Shown here: positions 52,754-64,000 of the stretch, in pieces
Numbering within the stretch: position 1 is the first letter of the stretch
Layout of the letters: each line of letters opens with the position of its first letter
NCBI RefSeq assembly: GCF_000702425.1
Contig: NZ_JNIE01000002.1
Location: forward strand, 405,023-469,022
Direction: 5' to 3'
Length of the DNA: 64,000 nt
Source: Thermocrinis jamiesonii
GTDB taxonomy: Bacteria > Aquificota > Aquificia > Aquificales > Aquificaceae
Position numbers and translations under genes: made by a program
Notes under the pieces: generated by a model
Told to the model about the DNA's origin: nothing
Seen by the model: only the letters and a program-made list of their open reading frames with translations
The model's database searches: none

Positions 52754-52784
52754 AGTGTTATAATAACACAGCGGAGGGAGAGTT
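52754..52784. promoter_or_regulatory. Overlapping divergent promoters, purC and the CRISPR/Calp unit
   Basis: In 31 bases the plus strand has TATAAT (52759-52764) and GGAGGG, followed by the TTG start at 52785. The minus strand has TATTAT (52765-52760) six bases before purC ATG 52753. The two -10 boxes share almost all of their bases, so RNA polymerase can occupy only one at a time. Confidence 0.5.
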
Positions 52785-53195
52785 TTGCTGGGGTCTTTGA
52801 TAAAGAGTTTGATTTTAGAGAGAAAGGAGTTTGAGGGGAGAAGGTTCTTGGGGATCTTCAATCAGAATCATCTAAGAATCCTTGAGGAGTATCTGAAAAC
52901 AGACTTTGGCTCTCATAAAAGGAAAAGCAGACCTTTCGTAGGTTACTACTTTGGAAAATGGTTCTATGTATGTCTTTTGACAACGTTAGAAAGGGATCAA
53001 ACTAAGAGAGTAGATCTAAATCTTTGCGATAAAAAAGGGTGTAATTTTAACTTCCAAAAAACGTCCTACATCTTTTATGACAGAAAAAATAAAGGCTTTT
53101 ATCTGTATCAACTTCCAAAGGACCTTATAAAAGGGTATTCCTTTTGTGGTTATTGTAAAGATTTAGAACACATAGACAAACTGCAGGCGATATAA
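52785..53195 (+). CDS. Small Cys-rich, possibly MazF-like protein heading the Calp cassette
   Basis: 136 residues. I know no named family for it. The segment RPFVGYYFGKWFYVCLLTT (50-68) resembles the RPA(L/V)V...VCCPxTT strand pattern of MazF/PemK toxins. C81-x4-C86 and C121-x2-C124 could bind zinc. TTG 52785 has GGAGGG seven bases upstream and follows a TATAAT box. Its stop is 3 bases before the sigma-factor gene, so it is the first gene of the CalpS-CalpT-CalpL-Cmr unit. The MazF link is a visual impression, not a search result; the function is open. Confidence 0.55.
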   Translation: MLGSLIKSLILERKEFEGRRFLGIFNQNHLRILEEYLKTDFGSHKRKSRPFVGYYFGKWFYVCLLTTLERDQTKRVDLNLCDKKGCNFNFQKTSYIFYDRKNKGFYLYQLPKDLIKGYSFCGYCKDLEHIDKLQAI

Positions 53196-53198
53196 GCT

Positions 53199-53855
53199 AT
53201 GGATTACAAAGAGCTTTTGATTAAGTTTGCGGAAGGAAAAGGAACACCTAAGGAGAGGGAATTTTTAAAAAACACCATTGCAAAGTTTGTAAGACAGATA
53301 GGAAAGGAAGAAAGCTTTAAGAAACGTTGGGGTGACGATTATGTGGAAGAGCTTCTTTCAAAACTAAGTGTAAAAGTTATTTCCCAAAAAGACCTTATAA
53401 AAGAAAAGAGTTTTGTAAGTTGGAAGTATTTTTTAAGCATAATCAAGTCTTGTGTAATAGAATTTTACCAAGAGTTGAGAAGCCTGCAAGAGTTTCCTTA
53501 TGAGGAAGCAAAAAATCCTAAAACGGAAGAGAACAATAGAAGCGTAGAAGAAACTGGTATATTTGCCTATGAAGAAAAGGTAGAAGAAAAGATTGAAGCT
53601 GAAGAGTTTTATGAGTATATGTTAAACTTCTTGGAAGAAAAGGATTATCCCATCCTTTGCTATTATCTTTGTAAAGAGTTTCAAAAAGATTGTAAAAAAC
53701 CGGAGGGCCTTTCTGAGACAAACCTATACAAACGCTGGGAAAGGTTGAAGAAAAAGCTAAGAGACCATTTAACCTACGAGCCTTCTGCTGAAGCGATGAA
53801 ATACTTCATTGACAAATTCCTGTCAGAAATATGTAAAAAGCTTGGTTATATATAG
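53199..53855 (+). CDS. calpS: ECF-like sigma factor, CalpS homologue
   Basis: 218 residues. Residues ~20-92 have the region-2 pattern (WGDDYVEELLSKL ... SWKYFLSIIKSCVIEFYQEL) and ~135-191 a region-4-like helix-turn-helix (LSETNLYKRWERLKKKLRDHL). It lies between the MazF-like gene and the CalpT-like gene, 3 bases after the former. In the described Calp system the sigma factor CalpS is held inactive by CalpT until CalpL cuts it. The identification rests on fold and gene order, and its promoters are unknown. Confidence 0.72.
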   Translation: MDYKELLIKFAEGKGTPKEREFLKNTIAKFVRQIGKEESFKKRWGDDYVEELLSKLSVKVISQKDLIKEKSFVSWKYFLSIIKSCVIEFYQELRSLQEFPYEEAKNPKTEENNRSVEETGIFAYEEKVEEKIEAEEFYEYMLNFLEEKDYPILCYYLCKEFQKDCKKPEGLSETNLYKRWERLKKKLRDHLTYEPSAEAMKYFIDKFLSEICKKLGYI

Positions 53856-53873
53856 ACTAAGAGGTGAATGATC

Positions 53874-54704
53874 ATGGTGGATCTTGAGGAACTTAAAACT
53901 CTTTTAAAGTTTTATAAGAGCTCTTTAGGTGACGAAAAATATACGGTAAAGGAAGAAAAGAGAGTGCCCGTAGAAGTGGGCCAGGTGCGTGTGCTCTTTT
54001 GGCAACCTGAAGAATATGTGCTCATTTTCCATATAGAAGAAGAGGGGCTGGTGCATGCTGTTCCGCTTACAATCTGGACAGACCTCACAACATGCTTACT
54101 GAAGATTCACCTGATAAGCGGGCTTGACAAAACTCGCAAAATACTTGCTCCCTTACCTTTCTATGTCTATCTAAGAAAAGAGGTTTTGGAAGAAGAAAGC
54201 TTTCCAATCTACATAGTAAGGCAGGACACAATAGAAAAGGTCCTAAAGGTGGTAGAACGGGCTCCCACTTGGTCTTCTATAAAACCAAAAAGAGAGTTTA
54301 TAAAATTAGTCTGGAAGCGCTATAGCGAACTGACTTTGGGAAGTATTTTAGCTACTCATATACAAAGAGAGCTACAGGCAGAGGAAGAAGAACAAAAAGC
54401 CATAATAATTTCTTATCCTGTCTTCTTATATCAAAAACACTACAACATACTACAAGCATACCAACGAGCCGCAAGTACAAACGCTTTAAAGGGGGAAAAT
54501 TGGCTTGGTATAGCTGAGGAAAACAAAATTGTCATATACTTGCCTCAAGAGTGCGAGGGAAAGAGGATAAAGGTAAAACTCTTTGATAGCGTAATCTACG
54601 AAGGAAAAGGAGCGGATAAGCTGATTATTGAGAACCTTCCTAAGGAGCTGAAATCCCACGAATATTTGGAGGAACACTTACATGTGGAAGTTTTGGAAGA
54701 TTGA
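53874..54704 (+). CDS. calpT: CalpT-like anti-sigma / protease substrate
   Basis: About 276 residues. An N-terminal beta-rich SH3/MazF-like domain (~30-70, RVPVEVGQVRVLFW ...), a helical middle, an Ala/Ser-rich segment (RAASTNALKG, ~200-209) and a C-terminal beta domain (~210-278). The size and position match CalpT, the MazF-related protein cleaved by CalpL to release CalpS. The starting ATG at 53874 has AGAGG nine bases upstream; ATG 53868 is too close. The 3' end overlaps the protease gene by 23 bases. Assignment is by context as much as by sequence. Confidence 0.65.
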   Translation: MVDLEELKTLLKFYKSSLGDEKYTVKEEKRVPVEVGQVRVLFWQPEEYVLIFHIEEEGLVHAVPLTIWTDLTTCLLKIHLISGLDKTRKILAPLPFYVYLRKEVLEEESFPIYIVRQDTIEKVLKVVERAPTWSSIKPKREFIKLVWKRYSELTLGSILATHIQRELQAEEEEQKAIIISYPVFLYQKHYNILQAYQRAASTNALKGENWLGIAEENKIVIYLPQECEGKRIKVKLFDSVIYEGKGADKLIIENLPKELKSHEYLEEHLHVEVLED

Positions 54705-56118
54705 ATTACCACACTTTCAAATCTTTCTAAAAAGTGGAAAGTTTGATGACAAAGTGGATGAGCTATACAACCAATTTTGGGATCTTCCATACTCTCATCA
54801 ATATGAACTCATCACATACTCAAAGGAAAAGGGTGTATTCCCGTCTGTGGAGACCTTTAAAAAGGTTTTCAAAGTTTCTGAGGAGAGCGTAAAGGAATTT
54901 TTCAGGGCAGAGCACAGAACTTTTAGATTTCCTGTGGTTTCCAGCGAAGGTAAAGGGGAGCTTGTGAATGCAATAATCATAAAAAATCTCAAGGAAGTTA
55001 TAACAAATCTAAAACAAATAAAAAGACATCTAAGTCCTATAAAAGAGTTTCTTAACAGTGGTTTTGCGGTGTTTTTTGACAGAGAATTTGCAGGAGCAAG
55101 CTTTCAACTTCCCACAGTCTTGAACCTTTATGTGGAAAACTTACCAGAGGATGCCCTCTTTACAGGAGCAGTAGATAAAAAGGGGAATATAAAATCTGTG
55201 GATGGCATTGAAGAAAAGAAAAAGTTGGCAAAGGAATTAGGTTTAAGGCTTGTGGAACCTTACCACTTCAACACCGTTGATGAAATAAAAGAACTGCTTG
55301 ACGCAGAGATTTATCAAATGCCCATATACATCACAAAAACCCAAGATAGATGGGAAGGAGAGTTTAAAAGCTTTTTAAAGGCAACAGGCATTTCGGAACA
55401 TTACCTTAAAAAGCTTGAGGTGTTGATAGGTTTGGAAACAAAGCCTATAATAACCGGACAGCTTACAGGAAAAGTTTGGGAAGAGGTCCTTAGGGAATTC
55501 TGGAGAAGGTTTAAGGAAACTGAGAAAAAACTCCATAGCAAAGAAGAATGGCACATAGCCATAAACGGTCCTTCTGCCCTTGCCTTTGCCTTAGGCGTGC
55601 TCTTTGGTAGTCAAAAGCCCTTTGTGTTTTATCACTACCAAAATAACTCCTACTATCCAATAGTGGTAGAAAATGTTAGACAGCTAAAAGAAAGAAACAA
55701 GCAGTTACAAAAGGTTAGATTTAAGTTTGAAAAGGGGGGTAAAAACTTGGTAGTTATGTTCTCCTTTGCCCATCACGACATGGAAAGCAAAGTGAAGGAG
55801 TATATCTCACAAAGATTAGAAAATCCGTCCTATTTACTGATTGAATCGGAAAGTTCAGGGAACATATCGGTTGAAGACATGAAGGATGTAGCCAAAGAGT
55901 GTGCAAGCCTTATACAGGACATAAAAAAAGAACAGAGCTTTGATGAGTTTCACTTTTTCTTTTCTACTCCCGTGCCTATAGCCTTTATGGTGGGTTTGGC
56001 CTTTGGTCACTACGAGGAAGGTTGGATATACAACTACAGCGGTGGTTATGAGCCGGTTTTGTCCATCTCTTTCCTTAGAAAACTAAGGGAGGGAAGGCAT
56101 GAAAAAGCTTACCTTTGA
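54682..56118 (+). CDS. calpL: SAVED-Lon protease, CalpL homologue
   Basis: 478 residues. A Lon-type protease domain (~80-215): nucleophile Ser140 in EFAGASFQLP and general-base Lys179 in SVDGIEEKKKL, aligned with the Lon P-S-A-G and GGLKEK motifs, plus FTGAVDKKGNIK before the Lys. The second half (~230-478) is a SAVED sensor with NGPSALAFALGVLFG and STPVPIAFMVGLAFG, two repeats of the SAVED pattern. In the described system cA4 binding to SAVED makes filaments that activate Lon and cut CalpT. GGAGG precedes ATG 54682. Overlaps cmr1 by 20 bases. Confidence 0.85.
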   Translation: MWKFWKIELPHFQIFLKSGKFDDKVDELYNQFWDLPYSHQYELITYSKEKGVFPSVETFKKVFKVSEESVKEFFRAEHRTFRFPVVSSEGKGELVNAIIIKNLKEVITNLKQIKRHLSPIKEFLNSGFAVFFDREFAGASFQLPTVLNLYVENLPEDALFTGAVDKKGNIKSVDGIEEKKKLAKELGLRLVEPYHFNTVDEIKELLDAEIYQMPIYITKTQDRWEGEFKSFLKATGISEHYLKKLEVLIGLETKPIITGQLTGKVWEEVLREFWRRFKETEKKLHSKEEWHIAINGPSALAFALGVLFGSQKPFVFYHYQNNSYYPIVVENVRQLKERNKQLQKVRFKFEKGGKNLVVMFSFAHHDMESKVKEYISQRLENPSYLLIESESSGNISVEDMKDVAKECASLIQDIKKEQSFDEFHFFFSTPVPIAFMVGLAFGHYEEGWIYNYSGGYEPVLSISFLRKLREGRHEKAYL

Positions 56119-57073
56119 GCTTGAGTTTATAACGCCAGCCTTTTTGGGTGGTGCGGACCCCCTAAAGCCCGAGCTAAGGCCTGCCAGTTTTGTAGGTCTT
56201 TTGCGCTTTTGGTGGAGAGCCCTAAAAAGTGAATGCAATATAGAAAAGTTAAAGGAAGAGGAAACAAAGATTTTTGGCGGTAATGGTAAGTATGCATCTA
56301 AGGTAGCAATTAGAGTTTGGGGAGAGGTAGTACCAAAAAATGAGGAGTTTTTCTTTTTTGTTTCCAACAAACGAAAGAGACTATCCATTGGAGCAGGTTC
56401 AAGATTTAACTTAACACTTATTGGTGAAGAGAAATATTTAAACCATTACATTGCATCTTTGTGGGCCTTGATCTTCTTGGGTGGTGTAGGCTCAAAAAGC
56501 AGAAGGGGTGGAGGGAATTTGGCTATAGTTAAGGCTCCAGAAGGGCTACCTATATCTTTTACGCCCGCAGAAGATCTCTTTAATTGGTATAAAGAGAATC
56601 TTCAAAAAGCTAAAGCCTTTGTTGGAGGGGTTCTACAACCCTGTGAAAAGTATTCAAATATCCAGGATACTATGAATATAAAAATAGGAAGCACTCTTCA
56701 CGATAGCTGGCATAAAGCATTAGAAGAGATAGAAGGGCTATATATACAGTATAGACGCTCTATAGGTGTTCTAAATCAAGAGGAAAAGAAAGAGGAAAAG
56801 ATAAAGATATTAAAACTTGCCAATTTTGGTTTGCCCGTTTTTGGAAAAAAGGTAGAAGCTGTTCTAAAAGAAGGGAAAGCTTTAAAAAGGAGAGCCAGTC
56901 CGCTTATAGTAAAGGTAGTAAAACATCAAGAAAAGTACAGGTGGGTTTTGATACTGTTATCAGGTAATATATTGCCTGATGGAGCAAAGTTTCGCTTCGA
57001 AGATAGTTTAGAAAACCCTGATCTACAAATATTGAAAGGAATGCTAAAAAATTTAGGGAGGAGGTCAAGATGA
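56099..57073 (+). CDS. cmr1: CRISPR type III-B subunit Cmr1
   Basis: 324 residues, RAMP fold. TFELEFITPAFLGGADP and RPASFVGLLRFWWRALK are the Cmr1 signature; SRRGGG is the glycine-rich loop. It caps the 3' side of the crRNA-target duplex in the Cmr complex. Begins inside the calpL 3' end with GGGAGGGAAGG upstream and overlaps cas10 by 4 bases. Confidence 0.92.
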   Translation: MKKLTFELEFITPAFLGGADPLKPELRPASFVGLLRFWWRALKSECNIEKLKEEETKIFGGNGKYASKVAIRVWGEVVPKNEEFFFFVSNKRKRLSIGAGSRFNLTLIGEEKYLNHYIASLWALIFLGGVGSKSRRGGGNLAIVKAPEGLPISFTPAEDLFNWYKENLQKAKAFVGGVLQPCEKYSNIQDTMNIKIGSTLHDSWHKALEEIEGLYIQYRRSIGVLNQEEKKEEKIKILKLANFGLPVFGKKVEAVLKEGKALKRRASPLIVKVVKHQEKYRWVLILLSGNILPDGAKFRFEDSLENPDLQILKGMLKNLGRRSR

Positions 57074-58890
57074 TTCTCCACATCTTCACCTTCTCACCCG
57101 TTCAGGGTTTTATATCAAGCTCCCGGAGGCTTTCAGATCTTTACCATTCAAGCTTACTGCTTTCTACAATTACAGAGAAAATCATTGAGAATTTGATAAA
57201 GGATTCAGAGGTTGAAGTTATCTATCCAATCCTTGTGGAAGGAGGAGAGGGATTAGCCAATTATCCAAACAGAGTGGTTTTCTTGGCAAAGGATTGCGTC
57301 TGCAAAGAAGTGGTGGATAAATTCCATCAAGTTTGGAAAGAGGTCCATCAGAAAGTTCTAAGGGAAGTGTTAGATAGGTCTGATATTGAAAAGGACGTCA
57401 TAGAACAACAGGCTAAACTTCACCTTGAAACCTACTTTAGAGCCTACTGTGAATGCTCCACTGCTGAAGAAACTAAAAGATGGAAAGAAAAACTAAAACA
57501 AAATCTAAGTGAAGACTTTGACAATTATGCGGTTGCTTATGATTGGACCGGGAGAAAGCTTGGAACTAAAAAGTCCCAAAAACCTTATGAGCCTTTGATA
57601 GACCACTACACATACAACGGTGGTAAGTATCCTGACGGTTGCACTCTTTGTGGAGAGAGGGCTCATTTGGCAGTTGATTGGGAAAAGTTCAGAAAAAGTC
57701 TTCGAAAGGACATAAGACATTACCTTAAGGAAGGGGAAAAGCTATGCGGTGTCTGTCTTGTGAAAAGGTTTGCCTTTTTCTATCTTGGAAGGCGGACTTT
57801 TCCGTCGGTCCATGACATAGCCAATGCGGAGTTTAAAGAGAAACTGAAAAAATTTGAGCAGGAACATAAGGAAGTTGCGGAGGAGCTAAGGTCTTTGCTT
57901 GAGCAGTATGTGGGGGTTGAGGAAAGCAGAAGGCACCTTTGGGACTACAACGCAGAGCTTTTTGAAATAAAGGAACTTGAGAGGATAAAAAAGGAAGATA
58001 AAGACTTGGAGTTGTTGATTGACGACCTTGTCGGAAAACTCCGTTGGATATACAGCCACCAACTTTTAAGCCCACCTTCTAAAAACTACTATGCTATTAT
58101 TCTCTCTGACGGAGACAGCATAGGAGAATGGCTTGGACTAAAAAGTAGGAAAAGACAGGAACCGCTGACGGAAAAGTTCCACCGGGAGTTTTCCGAAAGA
58201 CTTTCCGAGTATGCGAAAAAGATAAGAAGTTTGGAAAAGAAAGACAAATTCGGTCTGAGAATTGTTTATGCTGGTGGTGATGATGTGCTGGCGATGGCAG
58301 ACCTAAAGGAATTTTTGGACTTTGCAGAAAAGTTAAATCCTCTCTTCAAACAAAGTGTAAGAGAAAACGCCTCTGTCAGCGCAGGAATAGTCATAGGGCA
58401 TCAAAAAGATGAGCTTTCTTACTTGTTAAGGGAAGTAAGAAAGGCAGAAAAGAGGGCAAAAAGTATAAAAGAAAAGTCTGCCTTTTGTATAACCGTCATT
58501 CCAAGGGGAGGAGCGCCTGTTAGCTTTTGTGCCAAGTGGGAGTTTTTGAATCTCCTCAAAGACACCATTTCATACTTTGAGGAAGACATCATAGGAGACA
58601 GAACCGCTTATGACCTAAGACATATAGTGAGTAAATTTGAAGATAAAAGCGAGAACGTGCAGGTAATTTTGGCCCTTCTTAAGGGAATGTTGAAAAAAAG
58701 GGTGAATAAAAGTAAGCTGAAAGGGGAAAACGAGCAAGCATTTATTGAAAATTACTTAGAAAGACTTAGATCCTTTTTAGAAGCTTCGGACTTTGACATT
58801 AAGAACTTTGCTAACCTGTTTTATGTCGCCCGCTTTGTCGCAAAAGAGAGGAGGGAAAAAAGTTATGAAGTTGTTGGAGCTAACACCTGA
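57070..58890 (+). CDS. cmr2: Cas10/Cmr2 without HD domain
   Basis: 606 residues. It starts directly with the first palm segment (FSPVQGFISSSRRLSDLYHSS), has a zinc finger (C191/C194 and C226/C229) and the cyclase palm GGDD at ~402-405. The N-terminal HD nuclease is absent, so this Cas10 probably makes cyclic oligoadenylate but does not cut DNA. That fits the two cyclic-oligoadenylate-type effectors in the operon. GGAGG precedes ATG 57070; cmr3 starts 26 bases before its end. Confidence 0.92.
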   Translation: MILHIFTFSPVQGFISSSRRLSDLYHSSLLLSTITEKIIENLIKDSEVEVIYPILVEGGEGLANYPNRVVFLAKDCVCKEVVDKFHQVWKEVHQKVLREVLDRSDIEKDVIEQQAKLHLETYFRAYCECSTAEETKRWKEKLKQNLSEDFDNYAVAYDWTGRKLGTKKSQKPYEPLIDHYTYNGGKYPDGCTLCGERAHLAVDWEKFRKSLRKDIRHYLKEGEKLCGVCLVKRFAFFYLGRRTFPSVHDIANAEFKEKLKKFEQEHKEVAEELRSLLEQYVGVEESRRHLWDYNAELFEIKELERIKKEDKDLELLIDDLVGKLRWIYSHQLLSPPSKNYYAIILSDGDSIGEWLGLKSRKRQEPLTEKFHREFSERLSEYAKKIRSLEKKDKFGLRIVYAGGDDVLAMADLKEFLDFAEKLNPLFKQSVRENASVSAGIVIGHQKDELSYLLREVRKAEKRAKSIKEKSAFCITVIPRGGAPVSFCAKWEFLNLLKDTISYFEEDIIGDRTAYDLRHIVSKFEDKSENVQVILALLKGMLKKRVNKSKLKGENEQAFIENYLERLRSFLEASDFDIKNFANLFYVARFVAKERREKSYEVVGANT

Positions 58891-59821
58891 AGACGCACTA
58901 ACCTTTGGAAGTCTTAAAAACTTTACCGCAGGGGAGTCTCACTATCAGCACTCTACCTTCCCACCACCCATAATGAGGTTTTTCTCTTTGGGTAATGGGA
59001 CCGCTCTAAAGATAATGGGAGTTTTCTTAAAACACAGAAATGAACTATTTCTCCCAATGCCTGCGGATTGTTTAAAGAAAAGAAAGCAAGAGGAAGAAGA
59101 GGTCTATGTTCCAAAGTGGAATGAAGAGCTCAAAAGTCCTTTTGTGGAGCCTTTTGAAAAAGGAGAGCTTTTAAACCTTGAACAGGCAGAAGGTTTTTGC
59201 AGTTTTTCCGATTTTGCAGAAAGCTATGCCAAAGGGAAGAGCTTTAGCGCAAAAAAGGAAACTCTATTCCAAGAGGAAGAAAGGGTCGGGGTAAAGCTAA
59301 ACTATGACAAAAGAGTATCCCAAGAAGGTTATCTTTACTCAAGGATTTATTTGAGGTTTGAAAACTCTCGCATAGTGCTTTTGGTGGATCAAGATGTGCA
59401 AAAGCCATTTTTTGCTACGGTGGGTGGAGAAAGAAGGTATGCCAAGGTTAAGCCTGTTAAAGACAGATTTTTAGATTTCCTAAATGAAACTGTCAGCATA
59501 GAAAAGGATAGGCTATACAAGTTTTACTCTACAACTCACCTTTATGCGGATTTAAAGGGGGAGGTAAAGATTAACGGAGACATAAAGTTTAAGGTGGAGT
59601 GGGTCTTTTCCTTAGAACCTGAATGGGTTTCGGGCTTTGCAAAACCTTTCCTTTACATGCTAAGACCGGGCACAGTGCTTTGGCTCAGGGCACTGGAAAG
59701 TGGATTGTGCAAAAGGCTATGTCAGATTTCTTCCCGCAAGGAAGTTATTAAATACGGTAATGAGTCAAAAGATCTGCTCAAGAGAGGTTGGAATAGTGGA
59801 ATCCTTTTGGAGGTAACATAG
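58865..59821 (+). CDS. cmr3: CRISPR type III-B subunit Cmr3
   Basis: 319 residues from ATG 58865, with LLELTPEDALTFGSLKNF at the start, the Cmr3 5'-handle-binding beta-alpha fold. LYSRIYLRFEN and LRPGTVLWLRA are further family-like segments. It binds the crRNA 5' tag next to Cas10. The longer frame from 58793 lies within cmr2 and is rejected. It overlaps cmr2 by 26 bases and ends directly before csx1. Confidence 0.88.
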   Translation: MKLLELTPEDALTFGSLKNFTAGESHYQHSTFPPPIMRFFSLGNGTALKIMGVFLKHRNELFLPMPADCLKKRKQEEEEVYVPKWNEELKSPFVEPFEKGELLNLEQAEGFCSFSDFAESYAKGKSFSAKKETLFQEEERVGVKLNYDKRVSQEGYLYSRIYLRFENSRIVLLVDQDVQKPFFATVGGERRYAKVKPVKDRFLDFLNETVSIEKDRLYKFYSTTHLYADLKGEVKINGDIKFKVEWVFSLEPEWVSGFAKPFLYMLRPGTVLWLRALESGLCKRLCQISSRKEVIKYGNESKDLLKRGWNSGILLEVT

Positions 59822-60991
59822 ATGGAAAAGAGTCTTTTAGTAAGCTTTATAGGTGGCTCTAAGGGGAAAAGAGCCTATGAGAAGACAAAGTATAGGTTTT
59901 CCGAAGAGGAAGTTAGAGAAAGTTACCTTTTTGGTATAGCCCTTTTTGAACACCTGCGCCAAAAAGGGGAAAATTTAGAACTTCTCTTTGTGGGAACTAC
60001 AGGCTCTGGCTGGTCTGAACTTATCAATGTGAAGCAATCGCAAGATCAGGAGATAGATGAACTTTTTGACAGGATAACAAAGCTGGAAGAAGAGCAAAAA
60101 GTTAGCGACGATGTGTTATCTGAGTGGATAGACAAGGTAAAAGAAAGCGTGGGTGCAGAAATTCACTACGTATTGCTTGAAAATCCACCGGAGCTTGAAA
60201 ATATATCCAAAAGCGTTATACAAAAAGTTTTGAGCTTGGGAGACTATAAAAAGATAATCCTTGATATTACGCACGCTTATAGGTTTGTGCCATACGTGGT
60301 GTTCCTTGACCTTATGATAATCAAAAAGCTAAAGGGTTTTGAGTTGGAAATATACTACGGCTTTTTGGAATTTACCTTAGAGGACGGCTCAAAACCGGTA
60401 AAACGGCTAAGCCATTTGGAAGAGTTGGTAAAACTAAATGAAGCCTTGAGCCTTTTTGAAAACGCAGGGGACTTTAGAAGATATTTTCAACTGGCGGGGG
60501 TTGATGAAAGCTTTGCACGCAAAACTTACTTTGAGGTAGAAATAAACAGGCCTGCCACAAAACCGTTAAGAAATCTTATAAATCTCAAAGCACAAAAGGA
60601 ATACTTAGAACCGGTCCATCAGAAAGTTATAGAAAAATACATCTCTGGCTTGTTGGATGACCGTCTGGAAAACAGGATGAGAAACAGAGCCAAGTTCTTC
60701 TACGAAAGAGGTCAGTATTTGAAGGCAATAACTTTGCTTTACGAAGCTATACTGGTAAAAGGTATAAGGATTTTAGGCTTGGGAGGTGAGCAAAACTACA
60801 AAAATAGGGAATATGTAAAAGCCTTTCTGGATAGAAGAGGTGATGAAAGGTGGCTCAAGTTTAGAAATCTTAGGAATACCTGCGTCCACGGGTCTGACCC
60901 TGAAGCTAATGTTCGCAGTGCTACCAGTTCAGAAGATGAATTCAAGAAAATCTTTGAACTGGGTTTTGAAATCTTTGAAAACTTAACTTAA
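59822..60991 (+). CDS. csx1: Csx1-family CARF-HEPN ribonuclease
   Basis: 389 residues. An N-terminal CARF domain (~1-170; LVSFIGGSKGKRAYEKTKY, FVGTTGSGWSE, ILDITHAYRFVPY) and a C-terminal HEPN domain with the R-x4-H catalytic motif R351-NTCV-H356 (LRNTCVHGSD). It belongs to the group sometimes called Csx2/TIGR02221. Cyclic oligoadenylate should activate RNA cutting. It sits between cmr3 and cmr4, with GGAGGT eight bases before its ATG and no gap after cmr3. Its cOA size preference is not visible. Confidence 0.85.
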   Translation: MEKSLLVSFIGGSKGKRAYEKTKYRFSEEEVRESYLFGIALFEHLRQKGENLELLFVGTTGSGWSELINVKQSQDQEIDELFDRITKLEEEQKVSDDVLSEWIDKVKESVGAEIHYVLLENPPELENISKSVIQKVLSLGDYKKIILDITHAYRFVPYVVFLDLMIIKKLKGFELEIYYGFLEFTLEDGSKPVKRLSHLEELVKLNEALSLFENAGDFRRYFQLAGVDESFARKTYFEVEINRPATKPLRNLINLKAQKEYLEPVHQKVIEKYISGLLDDRLENRMRNRAKFFYERGQYLKAITLLYEAILVKGIRILGLGGEQNYKNREYVKAFLDRRGDERWLKFRNLRNTCVHGSDPEANVRSATSSEDEFKKIFELGFEIFENLT

Positions 60992-61002
60992 GGAGGGTGG
61001 AA

Positions 61003-61887
61003 ATGCAAAAAGAGATCTACCTTCTTAAAACCATCACACCACTTCACATAGGCGCAGGTCAAGGGTTGGGGCATGTTGATCTGCCTGTGGTGCGCGAAGT
61101 GCATACCAACTTTCCCTATATTCCCGGAACGAGCTTGAAGGGAGCGCTGAGAAACTGGGAAATAAACCAAGTTGCAATGACAATTGGAGAAAAGCCTTCG
61201 CAGGTAGAGGAAAAGCTAACCAAAGGTGAGCTAAAAGACGAGAGTATGCTAAGGCTTGCAAAGATCTTTGGCGTTGCGGGAGAGGGAGCGGAAGAAGGAG
61301 GAGAGGTGGGAGCGGGAAAAGTTTTGTTTTCCGATGGCTTTATCTTACTTTTCCCTGTAAAATCTGCAAAGGGAATATTTTCCCTAACTACATGCCCCTA
61401 TGCCATAAACAGGTTCTTTGAGTTTGTAGGACTTGACCAAAGGATAAAAGAAGTGCAAGAGGGTAAGGTAAAGGTTTTGGATACAAAGGATCACAAAAAT
61501 TTAATAAATGGTAAGCTTTTGCTTGAGGAGTTTATTTTTGAAGCGGAAGATTCACAAGAGCTAAAAGGCTTTGTTGAACTTTTAAAGGGTTTTTTGGGAG
61601 AAGAAAACATAAAAAGGCTCGTGTGCGTAAGCGATACGGACTTTACAGACTTTGTAAGCAACTACACAGAAGTTCAAACGCACATAAAGATAGATCTGGA
61701 TACGGGCACCGTCAAAGAAAAAGCCCTATGGACAGAAGAATACGTTCCCGCTGAATCTGTTTTTGTGTTTGGCTTGACCTTCTTAGAGGATATAGAATAC
61801 TCTCCGCCTTCTACCTTTCACCTTGGTGGAGACATAACTACGGGTAAAGGCTTTGTTAAGGTTCAAAGGTTGGAGGTGCAAAGATGA
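61003..61887 (+). CDS. cmr4: CRISPR type III-B backbone subunit Cmr4
   Basis: 294 residues. The backbone RAMP that cuts target RNA every six bases. LLKTITPLHIGAGQG and the active-site Asp26 in GHVDLPVVRE are right at the expected place, followed by PYIPGTSLKGALR. ATG 61003 after GGAGGG is better than GTG 60997, which lies inside the ribosome binding site. Overlaps cmr5 by 4 bases. Confidence 0.94.
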   Translation: MQKEIYLLKTITPLHIGAGQGLGHVDLPVVREVHTNFPYIPGTSLKGALRNWEINQVAMTIGEKPSQVEEKLTKGELKDESMLRLAKIFGVAGEGAEEGGEVGAGKVLFSDGFILLFPVKSAKGIFSLTTCPYAINRFFEFVGLDQRIKEVQEGKVKVLDTKDHKNLINGKLLLEEFIFEAEDSQELKGFVELLKGFLGEENIKRLVCVSDTDFTDFVSNYTEVQTHIKIDLDTGTVKEKALWTEEYVPAESVFVFGLTFLEDIEYSPPSTFHLGGDITTGKGFVKVQRLEVQR

Positions 61888-62255
61888 AAAGTAAGGTTCA
61901 GGAGGTTGCAAAGTTGGCTTATGAGTGTGTAATGCAAGTAAAAGACAAAGATTTTGCGTCAAAATACTTATCTTATGCAAGAAAATTACCTTCTATGATA
62001 ACTCACAACGGCCTTTTAGTCACGGTTGCTTTTGCGAAAGCTAAAAAAGAGCAAGCTTGGAAAACACTTTTGGAACACATAGAAAGCTTTTTGAGGAAAG
62101 AAGGGATAAAAAAGGATAAAAAGGACCTAATAGAGTTCCTTTCCGATTGCGAAGTTCAGGAATACAGGTTGATAACCAAAAGGGTTTTGGGCTTTTCTAT
62201 TTGGTTAAAACGAATAGCAGAAGGGGAGATAAAGGATGAAGGTAAAGGAGATTAA
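61884..62255 (+). CDS. cmr5: CRISPR type III-B small subunit Cmr5
   Basis: 123 residues, all helical. The segment KYLSYARKLPSMITHNGLLVTVAFAKAKK is the Cmr5 signature. It forms the protein stalk that lines the target strand beside Cmr4. Overlaps cmr4 by 4 and cmr6 by 20 bases. Confidence 0.92.
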   Translation: MKSKVQEVAKLAYECVMQVKDKDFASKYLSYARKLPSMITHNGLLVTVAFAKAKKEQAWKTLLEHIESFLRKEGIKKDKKDLIEFLSDCEVQEYRLITKRVLGFSIWLKRIAEGEIKDEGKGD

Positions 62256-63087
62256 ACAACTATTAAGTCAAACCGACAATCCCGCATTGCTTTTCAACAA
62301 ACTTTTACTTTTCAAATATGCAGAACAGATCTCTAAGGGTCAGGAGATAAAAAAGAAAGATTACATAGAGAGTTTTTTGGAGAGTCTCAGAGGAAAAGGA
62401 GTATTAAAGCAATCAAAGCTGGAGGGTATCAGTAAAGAAAGCTTTAAGCTAAAAACTGCCTACAGGTTGGTTATTGGGGCTGGCTATCCATCTTTTGTTG
62501 AAAACGGTTTTTTGTTTCACCACATATACGGCATTCCCTACATTCCCGGAGAAACACTAAAGGGCCTTGCAAGGTTTGTATTTATGCTTTCAATAGCGGA
62601 ATCTCTAAGAGAAGAAGTTAAACTCTCCAAGTTGGAGGAAGACCTGTCTGAAGAGAAAGCTATAGATGTGGTGCCACAAAAAATTAAAATACTCTTTGAC
62701 GATTACGAAATAGAAAATCCTGTGGGAACATTCTTAAAGATCTTTGGCTCCAAAAAGAGAAGGGGGCAGATAATATTTTTTGACGCATACCCTGTTAGCT
62801 TTAACCCTTCAAGGGACTTTGAGATAGATATTATGAACCCGCACTATGGAGAGTATTACCAACAAAACAAGGCACCCGCAGATTGGTTGAACCCTACTCC
62901 CATACACTTTTTAGCTCTAAGGGAAGGCATAGAGTTTGAATTTAGCTTGGGAGTTGCACCCCTTGAACCCCTAAGGGAAGAGGAGGAAAGCATACTTTTG
63001 GAAACCGCAAAGAGACTGCTTGAGATAGGCCTTAAAAACTTTGGAGTTGGAAGTAAAAAGCTTAAGGGGTATGGGTGGTTTAAGTGA
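62236..63087 (+). CDS. cmr6: CRISPR type III-B subunit Cmr6
   Basis: 283 residues, a RAMP protein. TAYRLVIGAGYPSFVENGFLFHHIYGIPYIPGETLKGLAR is seen at ~76-115 (quoted in parts: LVIGAGYP, IPYIPGETLKGL), and GVGSKKLKGYGWF at the end. It caps the 3' end of the complex with Cmr1. Last of the cmr set; its TGA shares bases with the ATG of the microprotein (TGATG). Confidence 0.9.
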   Translation: MKVKEIKQLLSQTDNPALLFNKLLLFKYAEQISKGQEIKKKDYIESFLESLRGKGVLKQSKLEGISKESFKLKTAYRLVIGAGYPSFVENGFLFHHIYGIPYIPGETLKGLARFVFMLSIAESLREEVKLSKLEEDLSEEKAIDVVPQKIKILFDDYEIENPVGTFLKIFGSKKRRGQIIFFDAYPVSFNPSRDFEIDIMNPHYGEYYQQNKAPADWLNPTPIHFLALREGIEFEFSLGVAPLEPLREEEESILLETAKRLLEIGLKNFGVGSKKLKGYGWFK

Positions 63088-63158
63088 TGGAGTGGATAAT
63101 CTTACTCATCTTTAGCTTGATACTTCTTGGATGGAAGATAAACAAAGATAGGAATTAA
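63087..63158 (+). CDS. 23-residue membrane microprotein coupled to cmr6
   Basis: ATG 63087 overlaps the cmr6 stop by one base (TGATG), the classic termination-reinitiation arrangement. The product is 23 residues: MEW, a hydrophobic run of about 13 (IILLIFSLILLGW), and the basic tail KINKDRN, i.e. one short helix with positive-inside orientation. It fills the space to the TnpB-like gene, which starts 3 bases after its stop. I know no named family. It could tether a Cmr or Calp component to the membrane, or be a small toxin-like peptide; both are guesses. Confidence 0.45.
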   Translation: MEWIILLIFSLILLGWKINKDRN

Positions 63159-63161
63159 AAA

Positions 63162-64000
63162 ATGAAAGAACAAATTCTTAGCTATGAGCTAACTCTTCCA
63201 CAGAGAATTTATCCACACCTTGACAGGCTTTTCTCCGTCTTTAAAAACCAAGTTAATTCCTACATCCCAAAACTTTGGAACGAACAAGGTTTTAAGCTTT
63301 TGTCCCAAAAGGGCTCTGCTGTGGGAATTTTGAAAAAAGAATTCCCTACTCCTGAAGGTCTCCCTTCAAGAGTTTTTAGAAACGTCCTTGAGCTAACAGG
63401 ACAAATCATCAGAAGTCAGATAGAAAGAAAAGAAGTGTTTGAAAAGTTGTTAAAGGGAGAAGAAGTCAAGGGCTATAACAAAAACTTTGTTTTGAATGTC
63501 CAAAGACAGATAGAAAACCTTAGAAAAAAAGGAAAAGAAGTTAATTGCTATTTTAACTTTCCCCATCCAGAGTTTGACGGTCAGATAGTTATTACTTCTG
63601 CAGATGACAACCTTGAAAAAGGACAGTTTAGAAGGTTAAAAATTTCAGGAAACTTTTTAGAGTTCAGCATAAAGGTTCCTACACAAAAAGGTTGGGATTG
63701 GATAAGTGTTAAAAAGCTTATTCCAGAAAGACTTAGAAGAGCTTTAACGAAAGCTAAGGAAGTTAAAGCGGTGTTGATAAAAAAGGTTTTACTAAAAAGT
63801 GGATACAGCATCTACAGGCTTGTTATTCCTTTAAGTTTTGAAGTAAAAGAACCTGAAAACGTAGAGAGAGTGTTAGCCTTAGACCTTTCACCTTCAGAAA
63901 AAAGACTTGGAACTGCAGTATTGGTAGAAGGAGAGAAAGTCTCCAAACCTTTGTTTTTTAAAACGCAAATGTTAAGAAAAGTAGAGAGACTACACTTTGA
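63162..64000 (+). CDS. TnpB/IS605 OrfB-like RuvC protein (partial, runs off the window)
   Basis: ATG 63162, 279 codons visible and no stop before the window end. A wedge/REC-like first part of about 230 residues leads to a RuvC-I motif ALDLSPSEKRLGTAV with catalytic Asp241. This is the TnpB/OrfB family, the RNA-guided nuclease of IS605-type elements and relative of Cas12. It starts 3 bases after the microprotein stop, in the same direction as the Cmr operon; no tnpA or left end precedes it. The RuvC-II, RuvC-III and zinc-finger parts lie beyond the window, so activity cannot be judged. Confidence 0.75.
   Translation, partial: MKEQILSYELTLPQRIYPHLDRLFSVFKNQVNSYIPKLWNEQGFKLLSQKGSAVGILKKEFPTPEGLPSRVFRNVLELTGQIIRSQIERKEVFEKLLKGEEVKGYNKNFVLNVQRQIENLRKKGKEVNCYFNFPHPEFDGQIVITSADDNLEKGQFRRLKISGNFLEFSIKVPTQKGWDWISVKKLIPERLRRALTKAKEVKAVLIKKVLLKSGYSIYRLVIPLSFEVKEPENVERVLALDLSPSEKRLGTAVLVEGEKVSKPLFFKTQMLRKVERLHF

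Follow-up and report, generated by a model that had tools for sequence, protein, structure and literature searches.

What does the first gene of a CRISPR (clustered regularly interspaced short palindromic repeats) operon in Thermocrinis jamiesonii contribute to the Calp signalling cassette behind it? The operon lies in a stretch of 64,000 nucleotides (the window; NZ_JNIE01000002.1, positions 405,023 to 469,022), the end of contig C2 in a genome of 1,315,625 bases in 10 contigs. A single plus-strand operon, its genes overlapping or at most 12 nt apart, spans 52785-63087 in the order calpX, calpS, calpT, calpL, cmr1, cas10, cmr3, csx1, cmr4, cmr5, cmr6. A first-pass annotation, made from the sequence alone, had recognised here a type III-B operon with Csx1 and, joined to it, the CalpS-CalpT-CalpL cassette, a reading that we confirm. 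The locus is of a known kind; its new part is a fourth, predicted MazF-like Calp gene, which that annotation left uncommented and which we name calpX. The Calp system of Sulfurihydrogenibium is described as three-part (PMC11417357, PMC12751052; here and below, the parts of cited papers available to us are meant). The accessible literature on Calp and on MazF-like proteins, sigma factors and type III CRISPR describes no fourth Calp gene, which may be in print elsewhere. We propose that the operon unites a type III-B system, CalpS-CalpT-CalpL and calpX, and that CalpX, MazF-like by prediction, would be the RNA-cutting partner of CalpS, a reading to which we give an even chance.

calpX accompanies calpS in three phyla

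Of 136 Aquificota genomes, 56 have a SAVED-domain match, and 50 among those with loci examined carry calpS; the window is therefore not the "second lineage example" that the first pass took it for. That annotation had suggested a search for the block in other Aquificales; calpX stands directly upstream of calpS in 50/50 Aquificota genomes (38/38 in a first set, 12/12 in a second), or 49/49 when G119, chosen via calpX alone, is excluded. These counts leave out G040, G042, G072, G074 and G087, which have a SAVED match, and, in G071, G081 and G082, some of the second SAVED hits. The profile did not pick up the calpX of G076 (L142), which was identified by eye, and two genes are split over two frames, calpS of G037 (L092) and calpX of G093 (L150). 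Across 58 loci (some genomes counted twice) the distance between the two genes is -61 to +3 nt.

The gene is present in Thermodesulfobacterium, Thermosipho and Hydrogenothermus loci. With CalpS as bait, 103 genomes of the Thermosipho phylum gave 14 clear CalpS-CalpT loci, 12 of them with calpX, and 395 genomes of the Thermodesulfobacterium phylum gave 4, all with calpX. Over the three phyla, calpX accompanies calpS in 66 of 69 genomes, a total that includes the Thermodesulfatator locus L115. At the Thermotogota loci L167 and L168 no calpX is seen within 1.5 kb on either side; L167 has CalpS-CalpT and, in divergent orientation, a CalpL-like frame. Thirty-two loci under 46 bits (L169-L179, L184-L204) were not counted as CalpS since they lack an adjoining CalpT match. 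Further weak sigma hits and a Cloacimonas Calp locus are likewise outside the counts.

Conversely, a calpX search over the 136 Aquificota genomes gave matches in 31, which adjoin calpS in the examined loci; the exceptions are a fragmentary match in G029 and, in G064, G067 and G046, frames of low score that contain stops. The only calpX without calpS among these loci is a broken fragment, L105 (5604-5846). This remnant of a decayed locus retains an upstream TATAAT-like box, with no calpS behind it. Three loci with CalpL but no calpS lie clear of contig ends (G015, G123 at its second locus, and G130), and calpX is absent in 3/3; G003, G026, G041, G050 and G103, whose CalpL loci without calpS run into a contig end, are excluded from this count. 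CalpT-CalpL pairs without calpS and calpX stand at L152 (G123:C1), next to Cas10, and at L110/L139 (G015), where the Calp protease may feed different outputs. Within the window's genus, calpX occurs as two tandem copies in four genomes (G052, G053, G055, G056). We disregarded a fused CalpT-CalpL frame in G055 (L071/L116) because the stretch contains unknown bases.

calpX is under purifying selection: seven comparisons, part of them with dS > 1, gave a ratio of nonsynonymous to synonymous substitution rates (dN/dS) of 0.09-0.28.

Predicted fold and conserved residues of CalpX

The catalytic residues of MazF are an arginine and a threonine. In CalpX, R49-P50 is kept in 105/105 members, and position 66 is Thr in 86/105 and Ser in 19/105; both features persist at identities down to about 20%. 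We equate R49 and T66 with the MazF pair by sequence and strand order, the coordinates not being superposed. The corresponding Arg drifts in CalpT while it is invariant in CalpX, which, at the level of sequence, points to a kept active site.

Several observations weigh against a MazF-type RNase. The best structural neighbours of the predicted fold are MazF/PemK, but their scores fall under the tool's safe level, and Foldseek against the PDB returned weak, unrelated rows. No match to PF02452 (PemK) at E <= 1 is found in 33 CalpX members, and hhalign against 10 PemK sequences is not significant; we therefore do not file CalpX as a PemK member. Thermodesulfatator (L115) lacks calpX at its locus and has no match anywhere in its genome. 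A conserved set of cysteines (Cys81/121/124), which would suit a metal site, also counts here; to our knowledge MazF has no such set. For the window product itself, searches of Pfam, PADLOC and NCBIfam returned nothing at E <= 1, and profile comparisons of CalpT with PemK and of CalpX with CalpT are not significant.

Possible roles of CalpX

In the studied relative, cyclic tetra-adenylate (cA4) leads to CalpL oligomers, CalpT cleavage and CalpS release, and the effect of this release on the cell is described only as a transcriptional response (PMC11417357, PMC12751052). If the window operon follows the same course, binding of viral RNA would make Cas10 produce cA4, on which CalpL would polymerise and cut CalpT, the cut being expected from alignment at or near A202-S203; CalpS would then go to RNA polymerase, and Csx1 would act as a parallel cA4 output. 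That calpX always stands before calpS where found intact and is absent without it, and that the MazF-fold CalpT holds CalpS, suggests CalpS as a common partner of two MazF-fold proteins; the conservation patterns suggest that CalpT has a decayed and CalpX a kept active site. Distance-matrix correlations are too alike to single out a CalpX partner. We infer that CalpX is an RNase that CalpS, alone or in complex with CalpT, keeps inactive, much as MazE does MazF, and that the cut freeing CalpS would also free CalpX, coupling new transcription to RNA cleavage. The full version of this model, in which Calp is four-part, CalpS doubles as the antitoxin of a MazF-type RNase and both are set free when the CRISPR response leads to CalpT cleavage, is speculative and rather unlikely as a whole. 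If true, one protease step would start new transcription and destroy old or viral mRNA, and in a single CRISPR operon two MazF-fold proteins would surround one sigma factor, with the active site decayed in CalpT and alive in CalpX.

CalpX might instead have the MazF fold, lack RNase activity and serve as an adaptor; as a second regulator it would tune sigma release and bind CalpS, RNA polymerase or, in a mixed dimer, CalpT. The same operon already shows a regulatory use of the MazF fold in CalpT, calpX goes with calpS, and the cysteines that set CalpX apart from MazF fit such a role; yet Arg-Pro and Thr/Ser are retained in all 105 members while the Arg of CalpT drifts, as expected of a kept active site. 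We hold this to be a possible but weaker rival to an RNase. A toxin-like addiction gene that heads the operon, guards the locus from loss and stays outside the signal path would accord with the MazF-like predicted fold and with the tandem copies in 4 genomes. That idea looks improbable given the constant place before calpS over three phyla, no adjoining antitoxin gene except calpS, and no intact calpX away from calpS, the sole exception examined (L105) being a fragment.

Less credible still is that the locus is simply the known Calp III-B operon led by a gene with no role in the Calp response. Every other part does match the published system, and the Sulfurihydrogenibium form already has an entry in PADLOC, C3a162; against this stand the 66/69 co-occurrence over three phyla, the residues invariant at about 20% identity and the purifying selection. 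An RNA-cutting CalpX remains our preferred reading. With MazF-type signs and a place before calpS in three phyla, the prototype included, such a protein would change the Calp model and add a second output.

Organisation of the operon and its surroundings

Table 1. Features of the Calp type III-B operon, in window coordinates.
Feature	Position	Strand	Description
-10 box (tentative)	52759-52764	+	TATAAT, upstream of calpX; by eye
ribosome site (tentative)	52773-52777	+	GGAGG, upstream of calpX; by eye
calpX (name coined here)	52785..53195	+	136 amino acids, TTG start; conserved gene, predicted MazF-like fold
calpS	53199..53855	+	sigma factor of extracytoplasmic function (ECF)-like type, conserved C-terminal tail LSEICKK
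calpT	53868..54704	+	anti-sigma substrate: MazF-like part 30-135, CalpT10-like part 201-277
calpL	54682..56118	+	Lon-SAVED protease, S140/K179 dyad
cmr1	56099..57073	+	
cas10/cmr2	57070..58890	+	606 amino acids, palm 2 domain, GGDD by eye
cmr3	58862..59821	+	
csx1	59822..60991	+	CARF-HEPN
cmr4	60997..61887	+	
cmr5	61884..62255	+	
cmr6	62236..63087	+	

CalpS matches TIGR02937 at E 2e-5, under the cut-off (17/30 CalpS members match), and the PADLOC 'HTH' model at E 1e-115. Its tail after the sigma match (about residues 192-218), LSEICKK in the window, is SEIC-like with a nearly invariant Cys in most sequences examined over three phyla and is a candidate binding part. CalpT has the expected two-part make-up, MazF-like and CalpT10. 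CalpL matches SAVED and Lon-SAVED models and retains the ring-nuclease residues H318, R333, K336 and H365; conservation of its Lon dyad, on which the first-pass annotation had made its reading depend, holds in 24/24 (S140/K179, aligned with S152/K193). The CalpL named for the T. jamiesonii III-B system in PMC12751052 (section 5) is probably that of the window. All Cmr subunits (Cmr1, Cas10/Cmr2, Cmr3, Cmr4, Cmr5, Cmr6) are matched, so the type III-B set is complete, and Pfam finds no HD domain in Cas10.

The first pass counted thirteen genes up to 63158. We count 11 and one doubtful open reading frame: a hydrophobic frame of 23 codons (63087-63158) overlaps the cmr6 stop, and a counterpart behind cmr6 is seen in 0/7 relatives. 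At 63162-64000 an open frame ends with the contig; by eye it resembles the start of a TnpB-type protein, with RuvC-like ALDLSPSEKRLG, and Pfam and NCBIfam searches gave no notable family match.

TATAAT-like boxes lie at similar places upstream of calpX in several relatives, by eye. The promoter scan gave no site upstream of the window calpX and 19 promoter-like sites in the region, with 17.7 expected by chance. Autoregulation by CalpS was rejected, given these boxes, no shared ECF-type motif upstream of calpX by eye, and no excess in the scan. No CalpS targets were found. Viral contigs scanned with CalpS and CalpL yielded no confirmed virus-encoded Calp part, and nothing in the phage records was hit by tblastn with CalpL or with P0009, a relative of CalpX; both searches also missed the known viral SAVED, so virus-encoded Calp genes may still exist.

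The operon has no CRISPR array of its own. Elsewhere in the genome, L206 (G000:C3:1-20000) holds CRISPR repeats (a 22-mer in 16 exact copies), a Cas6 match and, by eye, an apparent further type III locus whose Cas10 bears an HD domain; the window operon may depend on these elements. No Cas1 match is found in the genome as assembled.

Comparison with known systems

The MazF/PemK mRNA interferases are the nearest structural neighbours of CalpX, at scores under the tool's safe level, and have Arg-Pro and Thr/Ser at similar places in the sequence. CalpX differs in lacking a Pfam PemK match, in a helix between strands 1 and 2, in its conserved cysteines, and in its genetic setting, with a sigma gene as neighbour in the loci read and no MazE gene. 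The PADLOC model C3a162 (PDLC01080, no function given) matches the prototype calpX at E 2e-60 and 5/50 CalpX members, the window protein not among them; PDC-M11B matches one other member at 4e-5, and PDC-S02 one at 0.0065. For the SAVED part of the window CalpL, the closest solved relative is AcrIII-2, the viral SAVED of TGBSV (PDB 9r8s), an anti-CRISPR (PMC12751052) that stands alone without Lon, whereas CalpL is a Lon-SAVED protein.

The prototype is L133 of G099, whose CalpL is identical to PDB 7qda over residues 2-496 and whose CalpT end matches the CalpT10 of 8b0u; the CalpL source is Sulfurihydrogenibium sp. YO3AOP1 (PMC11417357). Its order is calpX-calpS-calpT-calpL-cmr1-cas10-cmr3-cmr4-cmr5-cmr6. 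An upstream gene and the cmr genes directly behind calpL are thus already present there, and Csx1 beside CalpL has been described (PMC12751052), so the window is not the extended version that its extra genes at both ends had suggested; the first of these genes is calpX. CalpL commonly has another cA4 effector, for example Csx1, beside it (PMC12751052) and is seldom alone (PMC11229360). Compared with the YO3AOP1 Calp system (PDB 7qda, 8b0r, 8b0u), the window shares the gene order and the cmr operon behind calpL and keeps the catalytic and ring-nuclease residues and a CalpT10-like CalpT end. It is the same system, plus a Csx1 between cmr3 and cmr4, where L133 has none.
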